Source of the DNA: Desulfobacteraceae bacterium
GTDB lineage: Bacteria > Desulfobacterota > Desulfobacteria > Desulfobacterales > JAABSP01
Direction: 5' to 3'
NCBI GenBank assembly: GCA_011390345.1
Contig: JAABSP010000001.1
Span: 1 to 64,000, forward strand
Length of the DNA: 64,000 bases
Under the pieces are notes generated by a model that was not told the origin of the DNA, ran no database searches, and saw only the letters and a program-made list of their open reading frames with translations. This document shows positions 25,401-45,145 of the stretch, in pieces. Numbering within the stretch: the stretch's first letter is position 1; every line of letters starts with the position of its first letter. Position numbers and translations under genes: made by a program.

Positions 25401-26345
25401 ATGGGAAAAAACGGCAGATACGCAATGGGGCTCTTTCTCTGCTGTACAGCGATCCTGCTGACGGCCGCCCCTGCCATCGCGCAGAACGGAATTGACAACG
25501 GGGGACATTCCTGGTGGTTCTGGCCGCTGCTGCTCTTTATCGTAACCTTTGTGATGGGCATCCTCGCGGTGCTCGGCGGCGTCGGCGGCGGCGTTCTCTT
25601 CGTGCCCATCATCAGCGGTTTCTTTCCGTTTCATCTTGATTTTGTCCGGGGCACGGGTCTTCTGGTGGCCCTCTCCGGGGCCCTTGCCGCAGGGCCCGGC
25701 CTGCTGAAGGCAAACCTGGCAAGCCTGCGCCTGGCCATTCCCGTTGCCCTGATCGCATCCTCCTGCGCGATCGTCGGGGCAATGATCGGCCTTGCCCTTC
25801 CCACCAATGTTGTGCAGATCGCGCTGGGGGCAACGATTCTGGGCATCTGCATCCTGATGCTCACCGCAAAGAAATCGACCATCCCCGATGTACCGGAGGC
25901 GGACAAACTCTCCTCCGCGCTGCGGATCTACGGCGTCTATTACGAGCCGAGCCTCAAGCAGAACATCAACTGGAAGGTGCATCGGACCCCGCTGGGGCTC
26001 TGCCTCTTCGTCATCATCGGCGTGATGGCCGGGATGTTCGGCCTCGGCGCAGGGTGGGCAAACGTACCGGTCCTGAACCTGCTCATGGGCGCGCCGTTGA
26101 AGATCAGTGTGGCCACCAGCAAATTTCTCCTCTCCATCACCGACACCTCGGCCGCCTGGATCTACATGAACAAGGGGTGCGTCATCCCCTTGATGGTGGT
26201 TCCGTCCCTCGTGGGGATCATGCTCGGCTCCTTTGTGGGGGTGCGGCTGCTGAAGGTGGCAAAGCCGACCTTCATCCGGTGGATGGTGATCGGTATTCTG
26301 GCGTTTGCGGGCCTCAAGGCCCTTCAGAAAGGGATCTTCGGATAA
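25401..26345 (+). CDS. TSUP (TauE/SafE) anion transporter
   Basis: A 314-residue inner-membrane protein. An export-like first helix (residues 7-27) is followed by the TSUP repeats: FVMGILAVLGGVGGGVLFVPII, LLVALSGALAAGPGL, and in the second half GVMAGMFGLGAGWANVPVLNLLMG and SLVGIMLGSFVGVRLLK. TSUP proteins move sulfite, sulfonates or other organic anions. A cytoplasmic loop of about 50 residues splits the repeats. AGGAGGAACAG precedes the ATG. It leads a run of co-oriented genes (DUF1634, CBS, sigma-54 activator, signalling genes). Confidence 0.9.
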   Translation: MGKNGRYAMGLFLCCTAILLTAAPAIAQNGIDNGGHSWWFWPLLLFIVTFVMGILAVLGGVGGGVLFVPIISGFFPFHLDFVRGTGLLVALSGALAAGPGLLKANLASLRLAIPVALIASSCAIVGAMIGLALPTNVVQIALGATILGICILMLTAKKSTIPDVPEADKLSSALRIYGVYYEPSLKQNINWKVHRTPLGLCLFVIIGVMAGMFGLGAGWANVPVLNLLMGAPLKISVATSKFLLSITDTSAAWIYMNKGCVIPLMVVPSLVGIMLGSFVGVRLLKVAKPTFIRWMVIGILAFAGLKALQKGIFG

Positions 26346-26428: not shown

Positions 26429-26854
26429 ATGGAAAACAAGACGGATGTCTCCCTGGAGGCGAGCGAAGAGCAGTTGCTCTATGCGAAATTTCTGGAAGTC
26501 GGGATGTATGTGGGGCTGGCCATTCTGTTTATAACCTATTTTCTCTATATCTTCGGCATTATGGAGCCGTATATCCCTTTGTCGGAGGTCTCTCACTACT
26601 GGTCCCAGAATGTGGGGGACTATCTGCATGAGGCCAACATCAATGCGGGATGGTCCTGGGTGGGGATGGTCGGCTACGGCGACTTTATCAACTTCATCGG
26701 CATCGCGATCCTGGCCGGTGTCACCATCTTCTGCTATATTGCTATTATTCCGCTGCTCATCAGAACCGGAGACATGGTCTATGCCGTGATTGCCGCCCTC
26801 GAAGCGCTGGTTTTGATTCTGGCGGCCAGCGGCCTGATCACGGGCGGACACTAA
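26429..26854 (+). CDS. DUF1634-like membrane protein
   Basis: A 141-residue protein with three hydrophobic helices (about 24-48, 88-114 and 117-138). The second and third helices match the pattern of DUF1634 proteins, which are often encoded beside TSUP transporters; a partner role in that transporter is therefore likely but not shown. GGAGGCG lies before the ATG. It is 83 bases after the TSUP gene and 32 before the CBS gene. Confidence 0.7.
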   Translation: MENKTDVSLEASEEQLLYAKFLEVGMYVGLAILFITYFLYIFGIMEPYIPLSEVSHYWSQNVGDYLHEANINAGWSWVGMVGYGDFINFIGIAILAGVTIFCYIAIIPLLIRTGDMVYAVIAALEALVLILAASGLITGGH

Positions 26855-26886
26855 CCGGAACCCGGAGGACAAAGGAGGGAATAGAA

Positions 26887-27441
26887 ATGGCGCTGAAAGC
26901 AAAAGTCAAAGATCGGATGATCCCCCTGTCGAACTACTCGACGGTCTCCAAGGATGCGACACTGGAAGAGGCCGTGATGGCACTGCGGGGCTCCTTCTGC
27001 GAACTTGACAGCCAGTCCTGCACCGAAGCGGGCCACCGGACGATCCTCGCTATGGATGAGAGGGGAAATCTGGCCGGCATTCTCGATTTTGCCTCAATAC
27101 TAAGAACCCTGGTTCCCGAGGTGGCCGGAGACTGGTATCAGCGCCTCTCTTCTGCCGGGGTATCGACTGCCTTTGCCGAGGCCAATGCGGAGGGGCTCGA
27201 CGAGACCCATCTCGACCTCTACGAGCGGGTGCGGAAGAATGCTCGGGTCAAGGTGAGGGATATCATGCTCAAGGTCCGGGGGACCATCGAAGCCGATGCA
27301 AGCCTGATGGATGCGTTGAAAAAGATATTCAAAAACCGGATCTCCAAGCTGCCGGTGATGGAGAACGGAAAACTCGCGGGAGTGCTGCGGGATACGGATC
27401 TTTTTCTGGCGGTAGCTGAAATCCTTGAAGAGAAGTCCTGA
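26887..27441 (+). CDS. CBS-domain protein
   Basis: A 184-residue protein with two CBS motifs: VKDRMIPLSNYSTVSKDATLEEAV at the start and VKVRDIMLKVRGTIEADASL near residue 120, the latter ending SKLPVMENGKLAGVLRDTDLF. It should bind adenine nucleotides and may gate the adjacent transporter. AAAGGAGG precedes the ATG at 26887. The sigma-54 activator begins 9 bases after its stop, so they are cotranscribed. Confidence 0.88.
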   Translation: MALKAKVKDRMIPLSNYSTVSKDATLEEAVMALRGSFCELDSQSCTEAGHRTILAMDERGNLAGILDFASILRTLVPEVAGDWYQRLSSAGVSTAFAEANAEGLDETHLDLYERVRKNARVKVRDIMLKVRGTIEADASLMDALKKIFKNRISKLPVMENGKLAGVLRDTDLFLAVAEILEEKS

Positions 27442-27450
27442 TCGCATCGA

Positions 27451-28896
27451 GTGGAACTGTCCAATACCCCACAAATCCGAGATCTATTTGATCATCCCGT
27501 TCTCCTGAATGAACTCATTGATGAGATTCCCACGGGGATCGTTCTGCTGGACGATTCCCGCCGGGTTCTCCGGATGAACCGGTTTCTGGCGGCCCTCACC
27601 GGATTTCCGACCGAGGAGACCCTTCGATACCGGATGCCCTGCCGGCAGGTCCTCAGAAGCCGTCTCTGCGTGACGGGGTGTCCGGCAAAAGGGATGACCG
27701 CCCATTCGGAGCCCGTCACCATTGAAAGCGATCTGATCGACCGGAACCGGCAGCTCATTCCGGTTCGGATCACCCTCTCTCCCCTCCGGGACGACCGGGG
27801 GGAGCTGGCCGGATTTCTGGAGTCGGTGGAGGATCTGCGGCCCATGCGCCACTCCCATGCCCGCCAGGAGGGGGGATACCGGCTTTCGGGGATGATCGGC
27901 AAGAGTCCGCCCATGGAGAAGGTCTTCCGCCTGATTCCGGCCATCGCACAGAGCGACTCCTCGGTGCTGATCACCGGGGAGACCGGAACCGGCAAGGATA
28001 TGGCTGCAGAGGCGATCCATATGGCCTCCCCCCGATCCAAAGGGACCTTTGTGAAGGTCAACTGCGGAGCACTGCCCGAGACCCTGCTGGAGTCGGAACT
28101 CTTCGGCCATCGGAAGGGGGCCTTTACGGGCGCGATCGAGAACAAGCCGGGCCGTTTCCGGATGGCCCATAACGGAACCCTATTTCTTACGGAGATCGGA
28201 GATCTGCCCCTGCCCCTTCAGGTGAAGCTGCTCACCTTTCTGGACGACCATGTGGTCTATCCCCTGGGGAGCCCCAAGGGGTTTGAGGCCGATGTCCGGG
28301 TGGTGGCCGGCACCCATCGGGATCTGGCCGGAATGGTCCGGGAGGGGCGATTCCGGGAGGATCTTCTCTTCCGGCTCAATGTGGTCAGGATTCATCTGCC
28401 GCCCCTGCGTGAGCGGGATGAGGACGTCCGTCTGCTGCTCGATCATTTCCTTAACACCTTTGTCGAACGGTTCGGCAAGCCCATCAGCGGCTTCTCCGCG
28501 GATGTCCTTGCCCTGTTGAGCCGCTATCCGTACCCCGGAAACGTCCGGGAACTGAGAAATATCGTGGAATATGCCGTCAATGTCTGCAATGAGGCCAAGA
28601 TCCGGCCAAAGGATCTTCCGGCCTACCTCTCGGAGCCGGCCGGAACCGAGTCATTTTTTTCCGGCCCATCGAGTCCCCTGGAAACCGGCCAGACCGATCC
28701 CTCCGGAGATCCCTCCCCGGAACCTGGCGGCCCCATCCCTGAAGAGGGAAAGACCTGGACCGAAGTCGAAAGAGAGATGATCATGGACGCGCTGATCCGG
28801 GCCAAGGGAAAACGGGGTCAGGCCGCAGAGATCCTTGGTTGGGGCCGCAGCACCCTCTGGCGGAAGATGAAGCAGCACGGACTGGACGGCACATGA
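27451..28896 (+). CDS. Sigma-54 activator with Cys-containing PAS domain and altered Walker B
   Basis: A 481-residue enhancer-binding protein starting with GTG at 27451. An N-terminal PAS domain (residues about 18-130) carries cysteines 64, 73 and 77 (C-x8-C-x3-C), which could bind a cluster, heme or metal. The AAA+ domain has Walker A GETGTGKD (176-183) and the sigma-54 contact loop GAFTGA (223-228). The Walker B stretch reads LFLTEIG: Thr247 replaces the normally invariant Asp. The C-terminal Fis-type helix-turn-helix is RGQAAEILGWGRSTLWRKM. No receiver domain is present, so control is by PAS. The stop overlaps ATGA sequence before the NifX-like gene. Confidence 0.92.
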   Translation: MELSNTPQIRDLFDHPVLLNELIDEIPTGIVLLDDSRRVLRMNRFLAALTGFPTEETLRYRMPCRQVLRSRLCVTGCPAKGMTAHSEPVTIESDLIDRNRQLIPVRITLSPLRDDRGELAGFLESVEDLRPMRHSHARQEGGYRLSGMIGKSPPMEKVFRLIPAIAQSDSSVLITGETGTGKDMAAEAIHMASPRSKGTFVKVNCGALPETLLESELFGHRKGAFTGAIENKPGRFRMAHNGTLFLTEIGDLPLPLQVKLLTFLDDHVVYPLGSPKGFEADVRVVAGTHRDLAGMVREGRFREDLLFRLNVVRIHLPPLRERDEDVRLLLDHFLNTFVERFGKPISGFSADVLALLSRYPYPGNVRELRNIVEYAVNVCNEAKIRPKDLPAYLSEPAGTESFFSGPSSPLETGQTDPSGDPSPEPGGPIPEEGKTWTEVEREMIMDALIRAKGKRGQAAEILGWGRSTLWRKMKQHGLDGT

Positions 28897-28909: not shown

Positions 28910-29248
28910 ATGAAAAAGGTTTTGATTCCGGTATACGGCGCGGAGATCGCGCCCCGCTTCGATCTGGCCACCGAAGTCCTCCTCTTTTTCAAATCCCGGG
29001 AAAAAGAGGGGTGGGACGAGCGGATTCTGGTGGTCTCCCACTCTTCGGCCGAGGAACTCTGCCGGCTGATCCTGAAAGAGGATGTGGAGATGGTGATCTG
29101 CGGCGGGATCGAAGATGAGTATTACCAGTATCTGAAATGGAAAGGCGTTGCGGTGATCGATTCGGTGGCAGGCCCTTGGGATCGGATTCCCCAGCGATTG
29201 ACCGCAGAAGATCTTACGGCCGGAGCTGTTCTATATGACCCCCTCTGA
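28910..29248 (+). CDS. NifX/dinitrogenase cofactor-like domain protein
   Basis: A 112-residue stand-alone protein with the fold pattern of the NifX/NifB C-terminal (dinitrogenase FeMo-cofactor) family: VLIPVYGAEIAPRFDLATEV, a central VEMVICGGIEDEYYQYLKWKGVAVID and the end GAVLYD. Such small proteins bind metal clusters or act as redox-linked partners in anaerobes. There is no Shine-Dalgarno, but the gene is only 13 bases after the activator and probably coupled. A 14-base sequence, GACGGCACATGAAA, occurs twice at the junction. Confidence 0.7.
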   Translation: MKKVLIPVYGAEIAPRFDLATEVLLFFKSREKEGWDERILVVSHSSAEELCRLILKEDVEMVICGGIEDEYYQYLKWKGVAVIDSVAGPWDRIPQRLTAEDLTAGAVLYDPL

Positions 29249-29264
29249 GGATTGGGAGGCGCCT

Positions 29265-31007
29265 ATGATGACCCGAGCCAAAAGCTGGCTGTACACCACT
29301 ATCCGCCATTTTCTGTCGATCCACAAGATTAGCGACGCGTCCTCGCGATATATCATCCTTCGGCGGAATATCACCCTGATCATGCTCTTTGTAACCATCG
29401 TCCCCCTGACGGTCATGGGGGCCATCAACCATTTCCAGTACCAGGAGAGCCTCAAAAACGAGGTGATCGAGCCCCTCCGGGTGCTGCTCAACAAGACCCG
29501 CCACTCCTTTCATCTCTTTTTAGAGGAGCGGCTCTCCATGATCCGATTCATCTCCTCGGCCTACACCTTTGAACAGCTTTCGGACCCGGCGACTCTGAAC
29601 CGGCTCTATCGGGTCCTGAAGAACGAGTTCGAGGGGTTTGTGGATATCGGCCTCATCAACGGCAAGGGGCTTCAGATCGGATATGCCGGCCCCTACTCCC
29701 TCGAGAACAAGGATTATTCCCAGCAGGCCTGGTTCCAGGAGGTTCTCATCCGGGACTCCTTCATCAGCGAAGTCTTCATGGGGTATGGGAAAGTTCCCCA
29801 TATCGCGATCGCGGTGCAGCGGGTAGAGCATGATGGGACTTACTGGATGCTGCGGGCCACCATCGATACGAACAAGTTCGACGAGATCATCTCCACCATG
29901 GAGATCGATGCCAAGAGCGACGCCTTCATCGTCAACCGGGAGGGGCTCTTTCAGACCCATTCCCGCTATTACGGGGATGTTCTGGGAAAAAGCCCCTTCG
30001 AGATCCTGCAGGGAGCCTATGAGACCACCATCGACGAGACCGTCGATCCCCTGGGCCGGGAGGTGATCGTCGCATACGCAAGCTTTGAAAAGCCCAATTT
30101 CTCCCTGGTGGTGGTCAAGCCCAAGGACATCATCTTGAGAACCTGGATCACCCTGCAGGGGGAGATGTTCTTCATCTTCTTCGCCAGCGTCTTTGTGATC
30201 ATCATGATAGTCATCAAGCTTTCGGATGTGATGGTCATGAACATCAAGGAGGCCGAGGAGCGGCGGGAGAACGCGATCCACGAGCTGGAGCAGAACCAGA
30301 AACTCTCGGCCATCGGCCGGCTGGCGGCCGGGGTGGCCCACGAGATCAACAATCCCCTGGCCATCATCAATGAAAAGGCCGGCCTGATGAAGGATCTGGT
30401 TACCTATTCTCCGGATTTTGAAAAGAAGCAGCGGTTTCTGGATCTGCTCACCAGCATCATCAATTCCGTGGGCCGGTGCAAGACCATCACCCATCGGCTG
30501 CTGGGGTTTGCCCGGCACAAGGAGCCGAGGCTCGAGCCGCTGGACATCAACCATCTGGTGCAGGAGGTGGTCGGCTTTGTCAACAAGGAAATGGTCTACC
30601 GGAACATCGATCTGCGCACCGAATTTGCAGAAGATCTTCCCCGGGTTCTTGCGGATCAGGGGCAGGTACAGCAGGTCTTTTTGAACATTTTAAGCAATGC
30701 CCTGTCCGCTGTTCACGACAACGGCAGGGTCTCCATCACCAGTTGGGAGGAGGACAAGCGGAATGTCGGCGTCTCCATCCAGGACAACGGCTCCGGGATG
30801 ACCGAGAAGACGATTCAGCGGATTTTCGACCCCTTCTTCACCACCAAGAAGGCCGGCGGAACCGGACTGGGCCTTTTCATCACCTACGGGATCGTCAAGA
30901 AGCTGGGCGGAGACATCAAGGTCCACAGCCGGGAGAACGAAGGCTCCACCTTTACGATCTATCTGCCCAAAGTCAACGGGGAAACGGATAAGGAGAAAGC
31001 GGAATGA
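29265..31007 (+). CDS. Sensor histidine kinase with dCache-like periplasmic domain
   Basis: A 580-residue membrane kinase. TM1 (about residues 36-57) and TM2 (about 290-316) enclose a periplasmic domain of about 230 residues of the double-Cache type (FVDIGLINGKGLQIGYAGPY, KDYSQQAWFQEVL). HisKA has His359 in GVAHEINNPLAII, and the ATPase domain shows NILSNALSA, DNGSGM and GGTGLGLFI. It probably detects a small molecule outside. The start at 29265 follows GGGAGG; a longer start at 29235 overlaps the preceding gene. Its stop overlaps the receiver gene. Confidence 0.92.
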   Translation: MMTRAKSWLYTTIRHFLSIHKISDASSRYIILRRNITLIMLFVTIVPLTVMGAINHFQYQESLKNEVIEPLRVLLNKTRHSFHLFLEERLSMIRFISSAYTFEQLSDPATLNRLYRVLKNEFEGFVDIGLINGKGLQIGYAGPYSLENKDYSQQAWFQEVLIRDSFISEVFMGYGKVPHIAIAVQRVEHDGTYWMLRATIDTNKFDEIISTMEIDAKSDAFIVNREGLFQTHSRYYGDVLGKSPFEILQGAYETTIDETVDPLGREVIVAYASFEKPNFSLVVVKPKDIILRTWITLQGEMFFIFFASVFVIIMIVIKLSDVMVMNIKEAEERRENAIHELEQNQKLSAIGRLAAGVAHEINNPLAIINEKAGLMKDLVTYSPDFEKKQRFLDLLTSIINSVGRCKTITHRLLGFARHKEPRLEPLDINHLVQEVVGFVNKEMVYRNIDLRTEFAEDLPRVLADQGQVQQVFLNILSNALSAVHDNGRVSITSWEEDKRNVGVSIQDNGSGMTEKTIQRIFDPFFTTKKAGGTGLGLFITYGIVKKLGGDIKVHSRENEGSTFTIYLPKVNGETDKEKAE

Positions 31008-31366
31008 AATCGATCAGCGTAATGCTTGTGGACGATGAGAAGGAGTTTGTCGATACCCTTGCCGAACGGCTGGAACTGCGCGGGATCGGGGTCCGGGTGG
31101 CCAACGACGGCGAGACAGCGCTGCCCATGATCGACGACGATCCGCCGGATCTGGTGCTTCTGGACATGATGATGCCCGGTATCGGCGGCTTGGAGACGCT
31201 GCGCCGGATCAGGGATCGCAACCCGGAGGTAGCGGTGATCCTGCTCACCGGCAGAGGGTCCGAACAGGAGGGGGAAGAAGGAATACAGCAGGGGGCTGCC
31301 GATTATATGATGAAACCGATTGAGATCGACCAGCTCATGGAGAAGCTGGAGAAGTATTCCGGGTGA
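31004..31366 (+). CDS. Single-domain response regulator
   Basis: A 120-residue CheY-like receiver: acidic VDDE (9-12), phospho-acceptor Asp54 in LVLLDMMMP, Thr82 and Lys104. There is no output domain. It overlaps the kinase stop (ATGA) and is therefore its direct partner. It is closely related in sequence to the receivers at 32381 and 33684, so these probably arose by duplication. Confidence 0.93.
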   Translation: MKSISVMLVDDEKEFVDTLAERLELRGIGVRVANDGETALPMIDDDPPDLVLLDMMMPGIGGLETLRRIRDRNPEVAVILLTGRGSEQEGEEGIQQGAADYMMKPIEIDQLMEKLEKYSG

Positions 31367-31487
31367 TTCAAAATGTTTCATTATAGACTACGTAGGATGT
31401 TTTATATTGATTCATTATGTTCCTGTTTCTCCATCGGGTCGCGGCTCAATAACGGGAGAAGCTTTGCTGTCCGCGGCTTTTCATGAC

Positions 31488-31504
31488 TTGGCATCATGGT
31501 TGCA
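31488..31504 (+). promoter_or_regulatory. Sigma-54 (-24/-12) promoter
   Basis: TTGGCATCATGGTTGCA fits the consensus TTGGCAC-N5-TTGCA with the required GG-N10-GC spacing. It lies 85 bases before the small-protein gene at 31589. A direct repeat TTCATTAT (31377-31384 and 31411-31418) about 70-110 bases upstream is a candidate activator site. The sigma-54 activator at 27451 is the obvious regulator. Confidence 0.8.
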
Positions 31505-31588
31505 TATGAATTGGAGCAGGTGAAAACAGAAAATGGGAAGAAGGGATAATCGCCTTCCCTTAAACAACCCCCTGAAAGGAGTGCAACC

Positions 31589-31780
31589 ATGAGAAAACTG
31601 ATGGAGAAGATCGAAAAGACCTTTATGGCGGCCGCGTTTGCCGAGGCCGATTGTCATGAGGCCGCGCTGGAGATCCTCGATACCCCGGCGACCCGAAGGA
31701 GCGCCCGCAGCCTCGATGATTTCCTGCGAGATGTGGGGCTGGATGAAGTCCGCTACAGCTATGTGCTGGCTCGGGTCTAA
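31589..31780 (+). CDS. Small protein with AAxFAEA module
   Basis: A 63-residue cytoplasmic protein of unknown function behind AAGGAG. Residues 12-30 read FMAAAFAEADCHEAALEIL, which closely matches the C-terminal tails of the pseudo-receiver and the receiver encoded downstream. It is the first gene of the sigma-54 operon. An adaptor or competitor role for the tailed receivers is an inference. Confidence 0.75.
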   Translation: MRKLMEKIEKTFMAAAFAEADCHEAALEILDTPATRRSARSLDDFLRDVGLDEVRYSYVLARV

Positions 31781-31822
31781 CCTTTAGGACCGCAGGTGAA
31801 TGGTTCGCAGGTGAATGGTTCT

Positions 31823-32338
31823 ATGGGAATCAACCTTCTGATCGTCGATACGGACATCGGCTTCCGCCAGAGCCTGTGCCGGCATCTGGTGACGGCCCCT
31901 TTTCAGGTCTTTGAGTCCGAAGGGCGCTGGGGATTGAAAAAACTCATCAAAAAGCATAACATCGATGTGGTCCTTCTCAGCCTCAGCCAACTCCGGGAGG
32001 ATGGTCTGGCCCTGCTCAAACGGATCAAACGGTTTCGCCCCCAGGTGGAGGTGATCCTGATCAACGGAACCGGGCAGCTCTCCCTGTCGATTGAGGGAAT
32101 GAAACTGGGGGCTTTCGACGACATTCTGGTCCCCTTTGACCTTAACCGGCTGATGGCGCGGATCAAGGATGCGCATCAGCGGAAACAGGAGAAGGCCGGA
32201 AGGTCGATCTTTGAGCAGTATCAGGATGCGATGACGGCCGCGGCCTTTGCCGAGGCCGGGGAGCCGGATATGGCCCTGGAGATGTTGGAAAAGAAAGCGG
32301 CTTCGGCTCAAGAATGCAAAGGCCCGAAAGAGGAGTGA
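31823..32338 (+). CDS. Pseudo-receiver with AAxFAEA tail
   Basis: A 171-residue protein whose first 120 residues align over their length with the receiver at 32381 but lack the chemistry. The phospho-acceptor Asp is Ser53 (VVLLSLSQLREDG), the signalling Thr is Asn81 and the conserved Lys is Val103 (ILVPFD). The tail carries TAAAFAEAGEPDMALEML (about 138-155). It probably acts as an unphosphorylatable binding domain. The start at 31823 has AGGTGA 10 bases upstream. A 15-base tandem repeat (CGCAGGTGAATGGTT) precedes it, and an in-frame ATG at 31796 lies too close to its own site. Confidence 0.82.
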   Translation: MGINLLIVDTDIGFRQSLCRHLVTAPFQVFESEGRWGLKKLIKKHNIDVVLLSLSQLREDGLALLKRIKRFRPQVEVILINGTGQLSLSIEGMKLGAFDDILVPFDLNRLMARIKDAHQRKQEKAGRSIFEQYQDAMTAAAFAEAGEPDMALEMLEKKAASAQECKGPKEE

Positions 32339-32380
32339 TCCATAAAAGAAGCGATCAACGATCGGAAGGAGAGATGACCT

Positions 32381-32857
32381 ATGGATGAGATCAAAGTCCT
32401 GTTGGTGGATGATGAGGAGGAGTTCGTAAAGACTTTGGCCGAGCGCATCGAGATGCGCAACCTCGGTTCGGACATCGCCTACAACGGCGAGCAGGCCCTG
32501 AAGGTGGTCAAGGACGAGGTCCCCGATGTCATGATTCTGGATCTGAAGATGCCCGGCATCGACGGCATGGAGGTGCTGCGCCGGGTCAAGAAGGCCTACC
32601 CGGATGTTCAGGTGATCATGCTCACGGGCCACGGCTCCGACAAAGACGAAAATGAGGCCCGTCAGCTCGGCGCCTATGATTACCTCCAGAAGCCGGCCGA
32701 TATCGACAAGATCGTTTCGACCATCAAGAATGCCTATAAGAACAAGGTGCAGAAGTCGATCATGGCTGCCACCTTTGCCGAGGCCGGAGAGTTCGACACG
32801 GCCCGGGAGATGATGAAGGAGAACGGAGAGAAGAAGAAGTCCGTCAAGTCGGAATGA
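32381..32857 (+). CDS. Response regulator with AAxFAEA tail
   Basis: A 158-residue receiver with all catalytic residues: Asp10 and Asp11, Asp54 (VMILDLKMPG), Thr82 and Lys104. After the receiver (about 122 residues) the tail reads SIMAATFAEAGEFDTAREMM (126-145), followed by a Lys/Glu-rich end. There is no DNA-binding or enzymatic domain, so output is probably through the tail. GGAGAG lies upstream of the ATG. Confidence 0.92.
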   Translation: MDEIKVLLVDDEEEFVKTLAERIEMRNLGSDIAYNGEQALKVVKDEVPDVMILDLKMPGIDGMEVLRRVKKAYPDVQVIMLTGHGSDKDENEARQLGAYDYLQKPADIDKIVSTIKNAYKNKVQKSIMAATFAEAGEFDTAREMMKENGEKKKSVKSE

Positions 32858-32948
32858 CTTCGAAGCGATATTGTGGACGCGGCCCTGACCCCCGGGTCCA
32901 TACGTGCCTGCGTCAACCTTCATCTTTCCCTTGCAAAGGAGGACCTAT

Positions 32949-33590
32949 ATGGAATGCAAGCCCGATATCCTCGGCTGGAACGGCCTTCAATTCTTCGGTG
33001 CGATCTCCGCATCCATCTCCCATGAGATCAAAAACGTGATCGCCATCATCAATGAAAATGCTGGTCTGCTGGAGGATTACTGTTTCATGGCCGAGAAGGG
33101 CAAGCCCATTGATCCGGCCCGGATGAAGGCCATCAGCGAAAAGGTGGCAAAGCAGGTCAAACGAGGAGACGGGATCATCCGGATGATGAACCGCTTTGCC
33201 CACAGCGTGGACGAACCGGTCCGTTCGGTGGATCTTGCAGAGCTGATCGCGCTGGTCGTTGCCCTGAACGGCCGGTTTGCCGCGAACAAGAATGTCAAAG
33301 TCGATGTCAGACCCGCAGAAGCGCCGCTTTTGCTCTCCACCAATCCATTCTACCTGGAGAATCTTCTTTTTCTGTGCCTCCAGTATGCAATGGAGAGTGC
33401 CGGGGGCGGCGGGGTCCTCACCCTGACCCCGGAAAAGAGTGCCGAGGGCTTTTCCATCACCATAACCGGACTGGCCGATTTTCCCGAACCTTTTCCGACC
33501 CGGCCGGTGGAGGCGCTTCTGGAGGCGCTGGATGCAACCCTTACCGCTGACCCGGCATCAAAGTCCCTGACCCTTGCTTTGAAACGATAA
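32949..33590 (+). CDS. Histidine kinase-like protein with degenerate ATPase domain
   Basis: A 213-residue soluble protein. The N-terminal half is a HisKA-like helical hairpin with His25 in ASISHEIKNVIAIINENAG, related in sequence to the kinase at 29265 (AHEINNPLAIINEKAG). The C-terminal half follows the HATPase layout but lacks the N box and both glycine boxes (only GGGGVLTLTPE and LADFPEPF remain). ATP binding is unlikely. It may act as a histidine phosphotransferase or dimeric scaffold between receivers, similar in principle to Spo0B or ChpT (inference). AGGAGG precedes the ATG at 32949. Confidence 0.8.
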   Translation: MECKPDILGWNGLQFFGAISASISHEIKNVIAIINENAGLLEDYCFMAEKGKPIDPARMKAISEKVAKQVKRGDGIIRMMNRFAHSVDEPVRSVDLAELIALVVALNGRFAANKNVKVDVRPAEAPLLLSTNPFYLENLLFLCLQYAMESAGGGGVLTLTPEKSAEGFSITITGLADFPEPFPTRPVEALLEALDATLTADPASKSLTLALKR

Positions 33591-33683
33591 TGTGCAGATA
33601 GAAATTGCTTTTTCCGGGAAAATGGTTTATCATTAAAAGATGAAGATGATTCAACTTTTAAATATGACTGAAAGGAGGGGAAG

Positions 33684-34112
33684 ATGACAGAAAAAGTACT
33701 GCTGGTGGATGATGAGATCGATTTTGTCGATACCCTTGCCGAACGGATGAAAACCCGGGGAATGAACGTCTCCACCTCCACTTCTGCAAAAGAGGCCATC
33801 AAGCGGGTTGAGGAAGAAGGTTTCGACGCGGTGGTGCTGGACCTGATGATGCCGGAGATGGATGGTCTGGAGGCCCTGGCCGCGATGAAGGAGAAGAACC
33901 CCGATCTTCAGGTGATCCTGCTCACCGGCTACGGCTCTGTGGAGAAGGGGGTCGAGGCCATGAAGCTGGGTGCGATGGATTTTCTGGAGAAGCCGATCGA
34001 TACCGCAAGTCTAGCCGAAAGAATCCAGAAGGCACAGGCCAACCGGATGATCCTTGTGGAGAAGAAGACCGAGGACAAGATCCGGAAGATCATTACAGGG
34101 AAGGGCTGGTAA
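33684..34112 (+). CDS. Single-domain response regulator
   Basis: A 142-residue receiver with VDDE (8-11), Asp53 in VVLDLMMPEMDG, the Thr in ILLTGYGS and the Lys in LEKPID. A short Lys/Glu-rich tail follows without the AAxFAEA motif. A strong AAAGGAGGGG site precedes the ATG, and 93 bases separate it from the kinase-like gene, so it might also have its own start. It is the last gene of the block. Confidence 0.92.
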   Translation: MTEKVLLVDDEIDFVDTLAERMKTRGMNVSTSTSAKEAIKRVEEEGFDAVVLDLMMPEMDGLEALAAMKEKNPDLQVILLTGYGSVEKGVEAMKLGAMDFLEKPIDTASLAERIQKAQANRMILVEKKTEDKIRKIITGKGW

Positions 34113-35000: not shown

Positions 35001-36494
35001 CTACCGTTGTCTGATGGAAAGGCTCCTGGAAAAGAAGAGCTGAGGACGATGGTTTCGGATGGTCCGGGCAAACTCTTCTGTCCGGAAGGCCATAGGATCG
35101 TCCGAATCGGCTTTTCCGCTTGAAAACGAGCCGATTTCCCCGGGAAAGAGACTCTCTCCGCCCCCTGCACCCTGTCGGTGAAGCCGATGGCCATCCACAT
35201 GGATCACCGCATAATCCTCTCCTGAATCCGTCGCTTTTTCCATGATCGCTGTGATATTTTCAGCCGTGGGCGGAATCACCTGCGTCACTTCTCCGAAGGC
35301 TTGGGCCGGCCCCAGGGGCTCCAAAACGGGCTGAGCCGGCATCTCATCCGGAAGCAGGGCGGAACTGTCCGGCTCGTCCGGTTGGGGGCTGAGCAGAAGC
35401 ACCCGGGTGGAGGATTTGGACCGGGATGGATCTCCCATTCCCCGGGGAATTCTCAGGGGCAGGTGGCGCCGGGCCCGGACCGATTTGGCCCCCTGCAGCA
35501 GATACCGCTCTCCGTCATGGAGCAGCTCCCAGGGTAAAGAGAGAAGAAGAAACGCGGCCCGATTGGCCTCCTGCTGCTGAACCACCGAAGAGCCCCGCAC
35601 CAGTTGCGCGTCGATAAAGACCGTCAACCGGCGTTCCTGTCCCTCTTCAGCCGAAAGCCAGCTCGACAGCACCTCGGAACAACTGTATTTCGGCATGACA
35701 TTCAAATAGAGTTCCCGGCCCCACTGCGGCAGGCGCTCTTCGACCTCCTGGGCTCTCTGTTTCTCGGCACCGCTGGGCCAGAGGTAATACTGATCAAGAT
35801 ACCACTTCAGCTCTTCGATCTCCGGGTAGCCGATGGGCGCGGTAAAGAGATAGGGCTCCCGGCATTCGACTCCGATCCTGCGGCTCTTTGCCGAGATATA
35901 GCTGAGTTCAGCGGTCGCGGCCGCATAGATTTTTCCTCCCCGTTTTTCGGTATAGGGGGAGCGCATCTCCAGAAGAAGCTCCTCTGCCGGGACCGCCGGA
36001 ATTGCCTCCACCAATGCAGTTGATTCTGGGGACGACTCCTGAAGCTCCGGCGCAAGGTTTTGCTGGGGCCGCTCTCCTGCGCTTCTGCTAAGGGCTGAAA
36101 TGATCTGGGGCAGGGCTCTTTTGATGCCGGCAGCCCCATTGATGACCCGGATGGCCAGTGGTTTCTGAACAAAGAGCCATTTCAGTGCCCCCAGTTCCAC
36201 CCCCTCCCGCAGCAGCGGAATGATGACAAAGTCCTCGGCACACTGCTCCTTGACCTGGGAGGCATGTCGGGTCTCCTCGGCAACCCATGCGGAATTGAAG
36301 GCATCGGGGCTGACCACCACGATGAATGCCCTGGCGTTTTCGAGGGTCTTGAAGATCCGTTCGATGGGAATGTTTCTTCCCCGCAGCTCCCGGGAATCGA
36401 CCAGGCTGTACATCCCCTTGGCTTCAAGGCTCTGGCGGAGCTTATCGACAAAATCGCTGTCCCGGCTGCTGTGAGAGATAAAGATCGTGCTCAT
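35001..36494 (-). CDS. TIR domain protein with CHAT-like C-terminus, 3' end damaged
   Basis: A 497-residue protein. Residues 1-135 are a TIR domain (STIFISHSSRDSDFVDKL, VVVSPDAFNSAWVAEE with the glutamate pair 73-74 near the NADase position). A variable linker follows. From about residue 300 the pattern is that of CHAT caspase-like domains: LPWELLHDGERYLL, RVLLLSPQPDEPD, YAVIHVDGHR (His at the catalytic place, Gly replaced by Arg). The expected Cys block never appears. The reading frame seems shifted near the end: in another frame LLFQEPFHQTT resembles the Cys region with Phe in place of Cys. The product may be a remnant of an abortive-infection effector. AAGGA precedes the ATG at 36494. Confidence 0.75.
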   Translation of the reverse strand: MSTIFISHSSRDSDFVDKLRQSLEAKGMYSLVDSRELRGRNIPIERIFKTLENARAFIVVVSPDAFNSAWVAEETRHASQVKEQCAEDFVIIPLLREGVELGALKWLFVQKPLAIRVINGAAGIKRALPQIISALSRSAGERPQQNLAPELQESSPESTALVEAIPAVPAEELLLEMRSPYTEKRGGKIYAAATAELSYISAKSRRIGVECREPYLFTAPIGYPEIEELKWYLDQYYLWPSGAEKQRAQEVEERLPQWGRELYLNVMPKYSCSEVLSSWLSAEEGQERRLTVFIDAQLVRGSSVVQQQEANRAAFLLLSLPWELLHDGERYLLQGAKSVRARRHLPLRIPRGMGDPSRSKSSTRVLLLSPQPDEPDSSALLPDEMPAQPVLEPLGPAQAFGEVTQVIPPTAENITAIMEKATDSGEDYAVIHVDGHRLHRQGAGGGESLFPGEIGSFSSGKADSDDPMAFRTEEFARTIRNHRPQLFFSRSLSIRQR

Positions 36495-36584
36495 TATGGA
36501 AATCCTTAAAGGCCGTTTTAATTCTGACTCTCTTTCATACCCTATTTTTCCGCGCAAGGCAACATCCCCTTTCCCGGGGATTGT

Positions 36585-42027: not shown

Positions 42028-42044
42028 AGCATATCCCATGCCAA
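42028..42044 (-). promoter_or_regulatory. Sigma-54 promoter of the DUF4168 operon
   Basis: On the minus strand TTGGCATGGGATATGCT has GG and GC separated by exactly 10 bases, matching the -24/-12 consensus. It is about 90 bases upstream of the ATG at 41938 and points away from the kinase-regulator pair. Confidence 0.8.
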
Positions 42045-42142: not shown

Positions 42143-42178
42143 GTGTCTAAACGACACATGTGCTAATTTGTCTGTGTC
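42143..42178. promoter_or_regulatory. Inverted GTGTC/GACAC repeats, candidate activator site
   Basis: GTGTC-TAAAC-GACAC at 42143-42157 is a perfect inverted repeat, and a further GTGTC follows at 42174-42178 in the second inverted pairing. The cluster lies 100-150 bases upstream of the DUF4168 sigma-54 promoter and just before the kinase start, a normal place for an enhancer. Confidence 0.6.
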
Positions 42179-42204
42179 ATAAGGATGAATCATGTGGAGG
42201 AATC

Positions 42205-43728
42205 ATGAAAAGCTTCAGCCTGTTTCCGGCATCCGTCAGTTTTCGGGCGGCTCTGCTCATTTATGTCGCGGCGCCCCTTATCACCGCTTTGGGGATTTTC
42301 GGATATCTGTCGCTCAGCTCCATCGAAAAACAGGTGGAAAAACAAATGCAGAAAGACCTGGAACTTCTGGCCCGGGCCGTGCAGCTTCCCTTGAGCTACG
42401 CCCTTGAAAAGGACCGGATGGGCAGCATGCGCCAGGCCCTGGAGTCCGTTTTCACCATCGGCAGGGTGTACAGCGCCTATGTCTATGACAAAAACGGCGA
42501 GGAACTCTTCACCCTGGGCCTGGCTGATCCGGAACCGGAACGGGACCGACTGACCGAACTGGCCGCGGACGGTGAAAGCAGGGGGGAATACGGTCGGATC
42601 GCAGACCGGCGGGTCTATTCTTATTTTGCGCCCCTCACGGATACAGGCGGGCGCATCAACGGGTTGCTGCATCTCACCCGGAAAGAAAGCGAATTCAGCG
42701 AACATCTCCAGGCGGTATGGATCAAAGGCGCTTTGAGTTTGGGCGCGTTGCTGATGATTCTTTCCACCGTGGTCCTGTACGGTCATCATCGCGCGCTGGG
42801 GGTGCATCTGGGGCGACTGACGACAAGCATGAAACGCATCGCCCGGGGAGAGCGCCGCCATCGGTTCAATCATCGGGGACCCCGGGAGATCGTCCAACTC
42901 GGGGCAACCTTCAACCACATGCTCAACAGCATTGAAGAGGCCGAACAGGCCCTGATGGAACAGCGCCAAAACCAGGACAAGCTGGAAAAAGCGCTCCGTC
43001 AGGCGGAAAAACTGGCCTCCCTCGGCCGCCTTGCCGCGGGGACGGCCCACGAATTGGGCACGCCGTTGAGCGTCATCAACGGCAGGGCCCAGCGCGCGCT
43101 GCGCAAGGAAGACCTTCCGGAGGGTCAGCGCCAGGCGCTTGCGGCCATTCGGGAAGAAGTGAGCCGGATGGAGCGCATCATCAAGCAGCTGCTCGATTTC
43201 AGCCGCAGCGGTTCTCTTCGCTGTTCCCTGTGCGACCCGGCCCTTCTGGCGGAATCGGCCATTTCCACCGTTGAAGAGGACGCCAGGGAGAGGGGAACCC
43301 GCATTCGGCTCGATGGACCTGTAAACCTTCCGCCCATCGCGCTGGACCCCTTGAGAATCCAGCAGGCCCTGATCAATTTGTTGCGAAACGCTGTCCAGTG
43401 CCGGCCATCCGGCGCCGTTCGCTGTTCTTGGGAACCGGCCGGGCGGGGGGTTGTTTTCTGCGTGGACGACGACGGCCCCGGCGTGCCGGAAGAGATCCGG
43501 TCGAAAATCATCGAACCGTTTTTCACCACCAAATCCGTAGGGGAAGGCACCGGCCTGGGGTTGGCGGTGGCGCACGCGGTTGCCGAAGAACACGGCGGAT
43601 CGATTGAAGTAGGGGACAGCGATATGGGAGGGGCCTCTTTTCGGCTCCATGTCCGTCACCAGGCGATGGACGCCCCGTTATTGGATGACCCTTCATTGGA
43701 TAAAAGGATGAACCATGGCCGAAAATGA
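42205..43728 (+). CDS. NtrB-like sensor histidine kinase
   Basis: A 507-residue membrane kinase. TM1 (about residues 10-32) and TM2 (about 173-193) enclose a periplasmic sensor of about 140 residues (YSAYVYDKNGEELFTLGL). A HAMP domain (GRLTTSMKRIARGERRHRF), a coiled coil, HisKA with His282 in GTAHELGTPLSVI and an ATPase domain (LLRNAVQC, DDDGPGVPEEI, GEGTGLGLAVAHAV) follow. GGAGG precedes the ATG at 42205. It overlaps its regulator by 14 bases. The architecture matches ZraS/AtoS-type kinases. Confidence 0.93.
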   Translation: MKSFSLFPASVSFRAALLIYVAAPLITALGIFGYLSLSSIEKQVEKQMQKDLELLARAVQLPLSYALEKDRMGSMRQALESVFTIGRVYSAYVYDKNGEELFTLGLADPEPERDRLTELAADGESRGEYGRIADRRVYSYFAPLTDTGGRINGLLHLTRKESEFSEHLQAVWIKGALSLGALLMILSTVVLYGHHRALGVHLGRLTTSMKRIARGERRHRFNHRGPREIVQLGATFNHMLNSIEEAEQALMEQRQNQDKLEKALRQAEKLASLGRLAAGTAHELGTPLSVINGRAQRALRKEDLPEGQRQALAAIREEVSRMERIIKQLLDFSRSGSLRCSLCDPALLAESAISTVEEDARERGTRIRLDGPVNLPPIALDPLRIQQALINLLRNAVQCRPSGAVRCSWEPAGRGVVFCVDDDGPGVPEEIRSKIIEPFFTTKSVGEGTGLGLAVAHAVAEEHGGSIEVGDSDMGGASFRLHVRHQAMDAPLLDDPSLDKRMNHGRK

Positions 43729-45145
43729 CAGGCTCAACAACGGATTGATCTGCATCGTCGAAGATGACAAAGCCCTCGGTACCCTGCTGCTCGAAGAAGT
43801 GCAAGACGCCGGCCTGAAGGCGTACTGGGCCCCCACGGCCGAGGAAGCCGCCCGGGTCATGGAACAAAAATGGCCCGACCTTATCGTGAGCGATCTGAAG
43901 CTGCCGGGGATGGACGGCCTGACCTTTCTCAAAAGCGTCCTCCACAAGGTCCCTGATTCCCCTCCGGGGTTTCTCATCATCACGGCCTTCGGAACCATTC
44001 CAAAGGCCGTGGAAGCCCTGAAGGCGGGCGCCGACGACTTTCTGACCAAACCCCTGGATCTGGAGCATTTCATGCTGTCGGTAAAGCGCGCACTGGAACG
44101 CAAGCGGCTCAGGGAGATGGTCGACCGGATGCGGGGACTGCTGTCTTCGGAAAGTTTCCACGGCATGTTCGGGAAAAGCATGTCCATGCGCCTGCTTTTC
44201 GATCAGATTCGACAGGTGGCCAGGGCTCAGGGACCGGTTCTGATTCTCGGGGAAAGCGGATCGGGCAAAGAACTTGTGGCCCGGGCGGTTCACCAGGAAA
44301 GCGCCCGGGCCAATGGGCCGTTTTTGCCCGTCAATTGCGCGGGAATACCGGAAAACCTGATGGAAAGCGAATTTTTCGGCCATGCGGCGGGGGCCTTCAC
44401 CGGCGCCAGCCAGAGCCGCCGGGGGCTGTTTGCCGAGGCCGCAGGCGGTTCCCTGCTGCTGGACGAGGTTTCGGAAATGCCGCTTTTCCTCCAGGCCAAA
44501 CTCCTGCGCGTCCTCCAGGATGGAAAACTCAGGCGGGTGGGGGAAAACACGGAACAGGAGGTGGACGTGCGGGTGCTGGCCGCAACCCATCGGGATATCG
44601 AGGCGGAAATCCGCCAGAACCATTTCCGGGAAGACCTGTTCTTCCGCCTGGAGACGTTCACCCTTCGGGTGCCGCCGCTCCGGGATCGGGGCGAAGACGT
44701 CGAGTTTCTCGCCGCCCGGTTCCTACAGCAGTTTGCCCTGGCGCTCGACAAAAACGTCAAAGGGTTTTCCGGCAAAGCGCTGGAGATGATCGTCCAATAC
44801 CCCTTTCCAGGCAATGTCCGCGAACTCAGCAACGCGGTGGAGCGGTCCGTGACGTTTGCCGGGGGCGGCTGGATCCGCGAGGAACATCTGCCGGCCAGAA
44901 TCCGACAACATGAGGGGGAGGCGCCAATATCCAAGAGCGATATTCATAGCCTGATGAAGCCCGAGGAAAATCTCCAGACACTGGCCGAAATGGAACGGCG
45001 CTACATTGACCATGTGCTGGCGGCATCGGGAGGAAACAAACGCCGGGCCGCGGCCATACTGGGCATCGGCCGAAGGACCCTCTACCGGAAACTCGGCAGG
45101 CAAGTGGAAAGCCGGGAAAATGCAGGCCCCCTTCCGTCAAGATAA
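43715..45145 (+). CDS. NtrC-family sigma-54 response regulator
   Basis: A 476-residue activator: receiver with IVEDD and Asp60 (LIVSDLKLPGMDG), AAA+ domain with Walker A GESGSGKE, sigma-54 loop GAFTGA, intact Walker B LLLDEVSE, and a Fis-type helix-turn-helix (NKRRAAAILGIGRRTLYRKL). Partner of the overlapping kinase. The divergent DUF4168 operon with its sigma-54 promoter is the obvious target. Confidence 0.95.
   Translation: MAENDRLNNGLICIVEDDKALGTLLLEEVQDAGLKAYWAPTAEEAARVMEQKWPDLIVSDLKLPGMDGLTFLKSVLHKVPDSPPGFLIITAFGTIPKAVEALKAGADDFLTKPLDLEHFMLSVKRALERKRLREMVDRMRGLLSSESFHGMFGKSMSMRLLFDQIRQVARAQGPVLILGESGSGKELVARAVHQESARANGPFLPVNCAGIPENLMESEFFGHAAGAFTGASQSRRGLFAEAAGGSLLLDEVSEMPLFLQAKLLRVLQDGKLRRVGENTEQEVDVRVLAATHRDIEAEIRQNHFREDLFFRLETFTLRVPPLRDRGEDVEFLAARFLQQFALALDKNVKGFSGKALEMIVQYPFPGNVRELSNAVERSVTFAGGGWIREEHLPARIRQHEGEAPISKSDIHSLMKPEENLQTLAEMERRYIDHVLAASGGNKRRAAAILGIGRRTLYRKLGRQVESRENAGPLPSR

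Follow-up and report, generated by a model that had tools for sequence, protein, structure and literature searches.

What a group of receivers and a kinase-like protein may accomplish together, when none of them carries a recognizable output and all are placed behind a sigma-54 promoter, is the question raised by a five-gene operon in the window, i.e. the whole stretch of 64,000 nucleotides (positions 1 to 64,000 of contig JAABSP010000001.1 of a Desulfobacteraceae bacterium) that was analysed. An earlier note on this DNA had proposed a relay of several steps that works by contacts between proteins and includes a 'dead' kinase. The best explanation appears to be that sulfate-reducing bacteria have a phosphorelay linked to transporters and that the operon forms its variable half. 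The genes and sites concerned are the following (handles of the L037 type denote the loci of relatives).

25401..26345, + strand: TauE/SafE (TSUP) family anion transporter (Pfam TauE, 5.6e-36); L039 keeps the same cluster order
26429..26854, + strand: 141-residue membrane protein (TM141), found in relatives together with the TSUP gene (L037, L039, L059, L060, L062, L139 and L148, by profile and BLAST)
26869..27441, + strand: CBS-pair protein (Pfam CBS, 1.6e-14)
27451..28896, + strand: sigma-54 activator (EBP) with PAS, AAA+ with GAFTGA, and Fis-type HTH, without a receiver (Pfam; GAFTGA seen in the translation)
28910..29248, + strand: 112-residue NifX-like protein, partner of the EBP (Pfam Nitro_FeMo-Co, 8e-4, weak and below the cut-off; conserved beside the EBP)
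29235..31007, + strand: HK1, dCache sensor histidine kinase (Pfam dCache_1, HisKA and HATPase_c; dCache model pLDDT 89.7, with DctB-like matches)
31004..31366, + strand: REC1, single-domain receiver with intact active site (Pfam and active-site residues)
31374..31415, + strand: three boxes resembling TGTTTCAT, at 31374, 31398 and 31408, a possible upstream activator site for EBP binding
about 31488-31504, + strand: sigma-54 -24/-12 promoter TTGGCATCATGGTTGCA / TGGCATCATGGTTGCA (pattern match, and conservation in L037, L039 and L062)
31589..31780, + strand: 63-residue protein with FAEA helix motif (homologues in L037, L039, L062, L068 and L070)
31823..32338, + strand: psREC2, receiver fold without the acceptor Asp, FAEAGE tail (Pfam and active-site residues)
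32381..32857, + strand: REC3, intact receiver, FAEAGE tail (Pfam and active-site residues)
32949..33590, + strand: HPt, putative histidine phosphotransferase of the DHp type that derives from a histidine kinase, with His25 (motif conservation, fold model and structural matches)
33684..34112, + strand: REC4, 142-residue receiver, probable last relay step (active site intact; length conserved)

The 141-residue membrane protein (26429-26854), which gave no Pfam match above the cut-off, is paired with the TSUP gene across families. On the minus strand, 35001-36557 of the window encode a TIR-domain protein, a possible defence gene, the second half of which looks CHAT-like by eye (LPWELL motif).

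The operon (31589-34112) contains the five genes that the earlier note had listed, namely those for the 63-residue protein, a receiver lacking the phospho-acceptor, a further receiver, the kinase-like protein (its start being placed at 32949) and a last receiver. The loss of the acceptor is evident in psREC2, with S, N and V where receivers have the acceptor Asp, Thr and Lys, and Pfam finds no recognised output domain in any of the five proteins, in line with the claim that none has a DNA-binding or known enzymatic output. A Shine-Dalgarno sequence is clear for four of the five genes and weaker for psREC2; the gap of 93 bases before REC4 (33684) holds no predicted + strand terminator, and REC4 is likely to be co-transcribed with the preceding genes. 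The 63-residue protein, psREC2 and REC3 (31589-32857) have in common a helix with the AAxFAEA motif, which may, as a guess, be a common docking element.

A search of the window with the strict sigma-54 consensus TGGCACGNNNNTTGCW, with 2 mismatches, gave matches no better than chance and, therefore, the case for the promoter rests on a better-fitting pattern and on conservation. The pattern TGGCAYNNNNNTTGCW occurs once in the window, with 0.07 occurrences expected, and 22 times genome-wide, versus 1 for the reversed control pattern. The -24/-12 element keeps its position in L037, L039 and L062 and, among non-redundant loci, is found in 13 of 21 clusters with the EBP/NifX pair versus 2 of 93 clusters without it, mostly 60-270 bases upstream of the gene for the 63-residue protein, a pseudo-receiver or a Cytidylate_kin2-receiver protein. 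The TGTTTCAT boxes, candidate sites of the EBP, are common to the regions upstream of these promoters, TGAAACA being present in 11 of the 13, and in 200 control shuffles no 7-mer ever rose above 7. The sigma-54 promoter claimed ahead of the five genes is, thus, confirmed, and the signs of a sigma-54-dependent operon are found together: the -24/-12 element, an EBP with GAFTGA, and rpoN in the source genome. The local activator would, via the TGTTTCAT boxes, turn on the operon that supplies the relay. A further kinase and sigma-54 activator pair lies at 42160-45145 of the window, with a weak -24/-12-like site by it at 42028 on the minus strand.

The description of the fourth gene product as a dead kinase is probably wrong, because strong conservation of its phospho-acceptor helix goes together with loss of the ATP site, which is the pattern of a histidine phosphotransferase. 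In Pfam searches with E values up to 1, HisKA is the only model to match HPt, and weakly (E 0.015), the own models of the Spo0B and ChpT families giving no match. Among 68 homologues His25, Asn29 (H+4), Gly39 and His85 are invariant, and Glu26 (94%), Asp43, Asn81 and Asp88 nearly so; the N-box and G2 motifs of the ATP-binding site are found in 0/68 and G1 in 3/68. The kinases of the same loci have the H-box in 104/104 cases and G1 in 103/104. The mean fraction of the commonest residue is 0.58 in the DHp half of HPt versus 0.34 in the ATP-binding half, and the model (pLDDT 95) has the DHp and CA fold of kinases with a shortened CA domain (125 residues aligned out of the 147 in ThkA). The structural matches listed include RetS and DivL but not Spo0B or ChpT, to which HPt may nonetheless bear a resemblance. 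With the DHp-helix His conserved in 68/68 homologues and the ATP-binding motifs lost, it is quite probable that HPt is a phosphotransferase and not simply a dead kinase.

The ExxN motif of the H-box would equally suit a phosphatase or sink, stripping phosphate from REC1 or REC4 and setting the off-rate of a simple two-component system with no onward transfer. Indeed, the invariant Asn at H+4 occupies the position used by HisKA phosphatases, and the CA domain is kept as a fold. The intact receivers that flank the HPt gene on both sides suit a relay instead; the His itself is invariant (68/68), although phosphatase activity may not need it, and PhyT, initially regarded as a phosphatase, turned out to be a phosphotransferase (PMC5898713). 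On balance, a phosphatase or sink seems unlikely.

The partners of HPt point in the direction of a phosphotransferase as well. With few exceptions, the HPt gene comes after those of a dCache kinase and an intact receiver, and the active site is complete in 103/104 of the receivers between kinase and HPt and in 86/88 of those after HPt, 46 of these 88 being exactly 142 residues long; gene fusions between HPt and receivers were sought and none was found. In two-component specificity, the helix after the phospho-acceptor His contacts receivers. This helix reads LAIINExAGLLEDL in HPt and LAIINEKAGLIKDL in the local kinase, and its identity to that of HPt is 51% for the local dCache kinase (n=82) versus 35% for other kinases of the same loci (n=10; p 4e-5). 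HPt and the local dCache kinase share this helix and, therefore, probably use the same receivers. The close resemblance of helix 1 in the two proteins, along with the structural matches to RetS and DivL, could also be taken as the mark of a pseudokinase adaptor similar to these two, pairing with the DHp domain of HK1 or binding a receiver, and tuning the kinase. However, the match falls in the receiver-contacting stretch, suiting a shared receiver at least as well, and DivL has lost the phospho-acceptor His that is invariant in HPt, so that an adaptor role is quite improbable and phosphotransfer is the preferred reading.

As for the input, the dCache model of HK1 matches DctB and many amino-acid sensors, and these matches leave the ligand unsettled; ten positions of the sensor domain are invariant in the kinases beside all three types of transporter described below, which suggests one kind of ligand. 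As for the output, no more than 60 residues follow the receiver domain in 322/325 receivers encoded near HPt on its strand and, therefore, there is no room for a DNA-binding domain of the OmpR/WalR type. This bears on the proposal, published for DASS and SulP clusters (PMC11887813), that the transporter genes answer to an ordinary two-component system with DNA-binding regulators of the WalR type. The clusters are of the same kind and include Cache kinases, but the lengths of the receivers contradict that scheme for these loci, where it is very improbable.

The gene set is conserved in relatives, as the reading in the earlier note implied. The gene order is kept in two genomes of the same family (L037 and L039), with one additional dCache kinase and receiver inserted before HPt, and a search of 58 genomes, almost all from the same taxonomic order, found HPt in most of them. 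In named records it occurs mostly in several lineages of Desulfobacterota, and also in genomes assigned to Zixibacteria, LCP-89, Electryonea, Acidobacteria and Nitrospirae. A SulP, DASS or TauE-type transporter is present in 65 of 76 HPt loci (non-redundant, at least 13 kb, after removal of the duplicates L082, L097, L108 and L137), no transporter above threshold being found in the other 11, and a dCache sensor kinase in 75 of 76. Regions around other HPt-like kinases were dropped as controls since they are not neutral, most having DASS-like genes and related dCache kinases, and arbitrary 16-kb regions from the same order were used instead, with a transporter in 0 of 20 (Fisher 3e-13 for 66/77 before duplicate removal vs 0/20, uncorrected for shared ancestry). 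An example SulP copy scores above the cut-off of TIGR00815 and an example DASS copy matches Na_sulph_symp. In the SulP clusters, the genes for the 63-residue protein, psREC2 and REC3 give way to one whose product combines a Cytidylate_kin2-like domain with a receiver. In all 50 SulP-type loci (e.g. L046:7012-8235 and L038:5746-7032) this domain, apparently without a normal P-loop, is fused to the receiver by way of a BON-like stretch.

Furthermore, dsrA is present in all 50 HPt-carrying genomes, picked among 296 of the phylum by a score and ORF-length rule, versus 147/296 overall, a comparison uncorrected for shared ancestry. The source genome carries dsrA, besides rpoN, and is, therefore, probably that of a sulfate reducer. 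The locus very likely belongs to the transporter-linked family, and what appears from the sequences to be the same relay is found in many other sulfate reducers next to unrelated sulfate transporters. The source genome also contains a second receiver-rich cluster (C85:4000-23000, L205), with a related dCache kinase, a DASS-like transporter, an EBP and two sigma-54 -24/-12 matches (C85:7389 and 16126).

The earlier note knew of no described system with this set of genes. This holds only in part, in the light of the DASS and SulP clusters published in 2025 and of a probably related sigma-54 operon of D. vulgaris published in 2015; no mention of the phosphotransferase was found in the available parts of either report (PMC11887813, PMC4641369). 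The former (Sci Adv 2025), as far as available, describes clusters for sulfate uptake in Desulfobacteraceae, in which transporters occur with kinases, CBS and TetR proteins, and proposes a sulfate signal and WalR-type regulators (PMC11887813). In both, sulfate transporters are surrounded by Cache-type kinases, a number of receivers, and CBS or TetR proteins; a TauE-type transporter with a sigma-54 activator, a pseudo-receiver and a phosphotransferase sets the present locus apart, and the available main text does not mention phosphorelay, receiver or TSUP. The window has the dCache kinase of those clusters and a transporter of the TauE type, not DASS or SulP, while relatives with the same relay carry SulP or DASS. 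The WalR-type part of the 2025 model does not fit these loci, the receivers having no room for a DNA-binding domain.

In D. vulgaris, the sigma-54 operon DVU2957-DVU2967 is controlled by the activator DVU2956, whose binding site upstream of DVU2957 has three half-sites (PMC4641369), and DVU2958 is a TSUP protein (PMC5840216). Knockout or expression of DVU2956 alters biofilm formation according to the available part of the study, the title of which adds an effect on hydrogen sulfide production. With a sigma-54 promoter, an EBP both next to and inside the operon, and a TSUP protein, DVU2956-DVU2967 is a probable counterpart of the cluster, an orthology proposed from published descriptions. In a Desulfomicrobiaceae locus (L149), a divergent EBP is found with TSUP, TM141, EBP, NifX, kinase, receiver and HPt; this layout resembles that of DVU2956-DVU2967, and a receiver-kinase fusion (L149:8417-9595) adjoins the relay.

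For the relay itself, ChpT of Caulobacter, which cannot autophosphorylate with ATP (PMC3433190), and Spo0B of Bacillus offer the closest parallels considered, being kinase-like DHp and CA proteins that shuttle phosphate on a His, as predicted for HPt, although HPt does not match their Pfam families and the final receiver in the present locus lacks a DNA-binding domain. The order proposed here is that of PhyT-SdrG-PhyR, from kinase to single-domain receiver, phosphotransferase and final receiver protein (PMC5898713); PhyT, however, is bound to the membrane, and its target, PhyR, controls a sigma factor, whereas HPt and the receivers look soluble and are transporter-linked. The locus may, in our judgement, be regarded as a ChpT/Spo0B-like relay attached to the anion transporters of sulfate reducers.

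A sigma-54 operon feeding a multi-step relay that works through protein contacts, as first suggested, is well supported by these comparisons. Starting from the parts, their conservation, the promoter and the linkage to transporters and dsrA, we infer phosphotransfer and its direction, the signal and the final target as follows. Through its dCache domain, HK1 would sense a signal from outside the cytoplasm, probably sulfate or a different sulfur oxyanion, and would phosphorylate REC1; the phosphoryl group would pass to His25 of HPt, itself unable to use ATP, and from there to the 142-residue receiver REC4, an order supported by the positions of the receivers and the shared helix. psREC2 and REC3 are assigned no step in this scheme. 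Having no output domain, REC4 would act by protein contact, the simplest target being the transporter (here TauE-type), or else the local CBS or EBP proteins; a direct action on the transporter is put forward tentatively. The output would be control of sulfate or sulfur-oxyanion transport. Taken as a whole, this transporter-linked phosphorelay of sulfate reducers, running from kinase to receiver, phosphotransferase and 142-residue receiver with its operon under a local sigma-54 activator, is the best overall model and a reasonably likely one.

Sulfate respiration starts with the uptake of sulfate, a step that influences how fast respiration proceeds. To our knowledge, the molecular basis by which sulfate reducers sense sulfate and adjust its uptake is not known. 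A conserved relay beside SulP, DASS and TauE-type transporters provides a defined set of proteins for testing. It is conceivable, if doubtful, that a dedicated four-step phosphorelay of sulfate respiration exists in several phyla, its last receiver binding and gating the sulfate transporter, so that one module paired with three unrelated transporter families would exert post-translational control of sulfate entry. The relay would call for a correction of the published view, which assigns this job to DNA-binding regulators, and would serve as a genomic marker to find the real sulfate transporters among many candidates.
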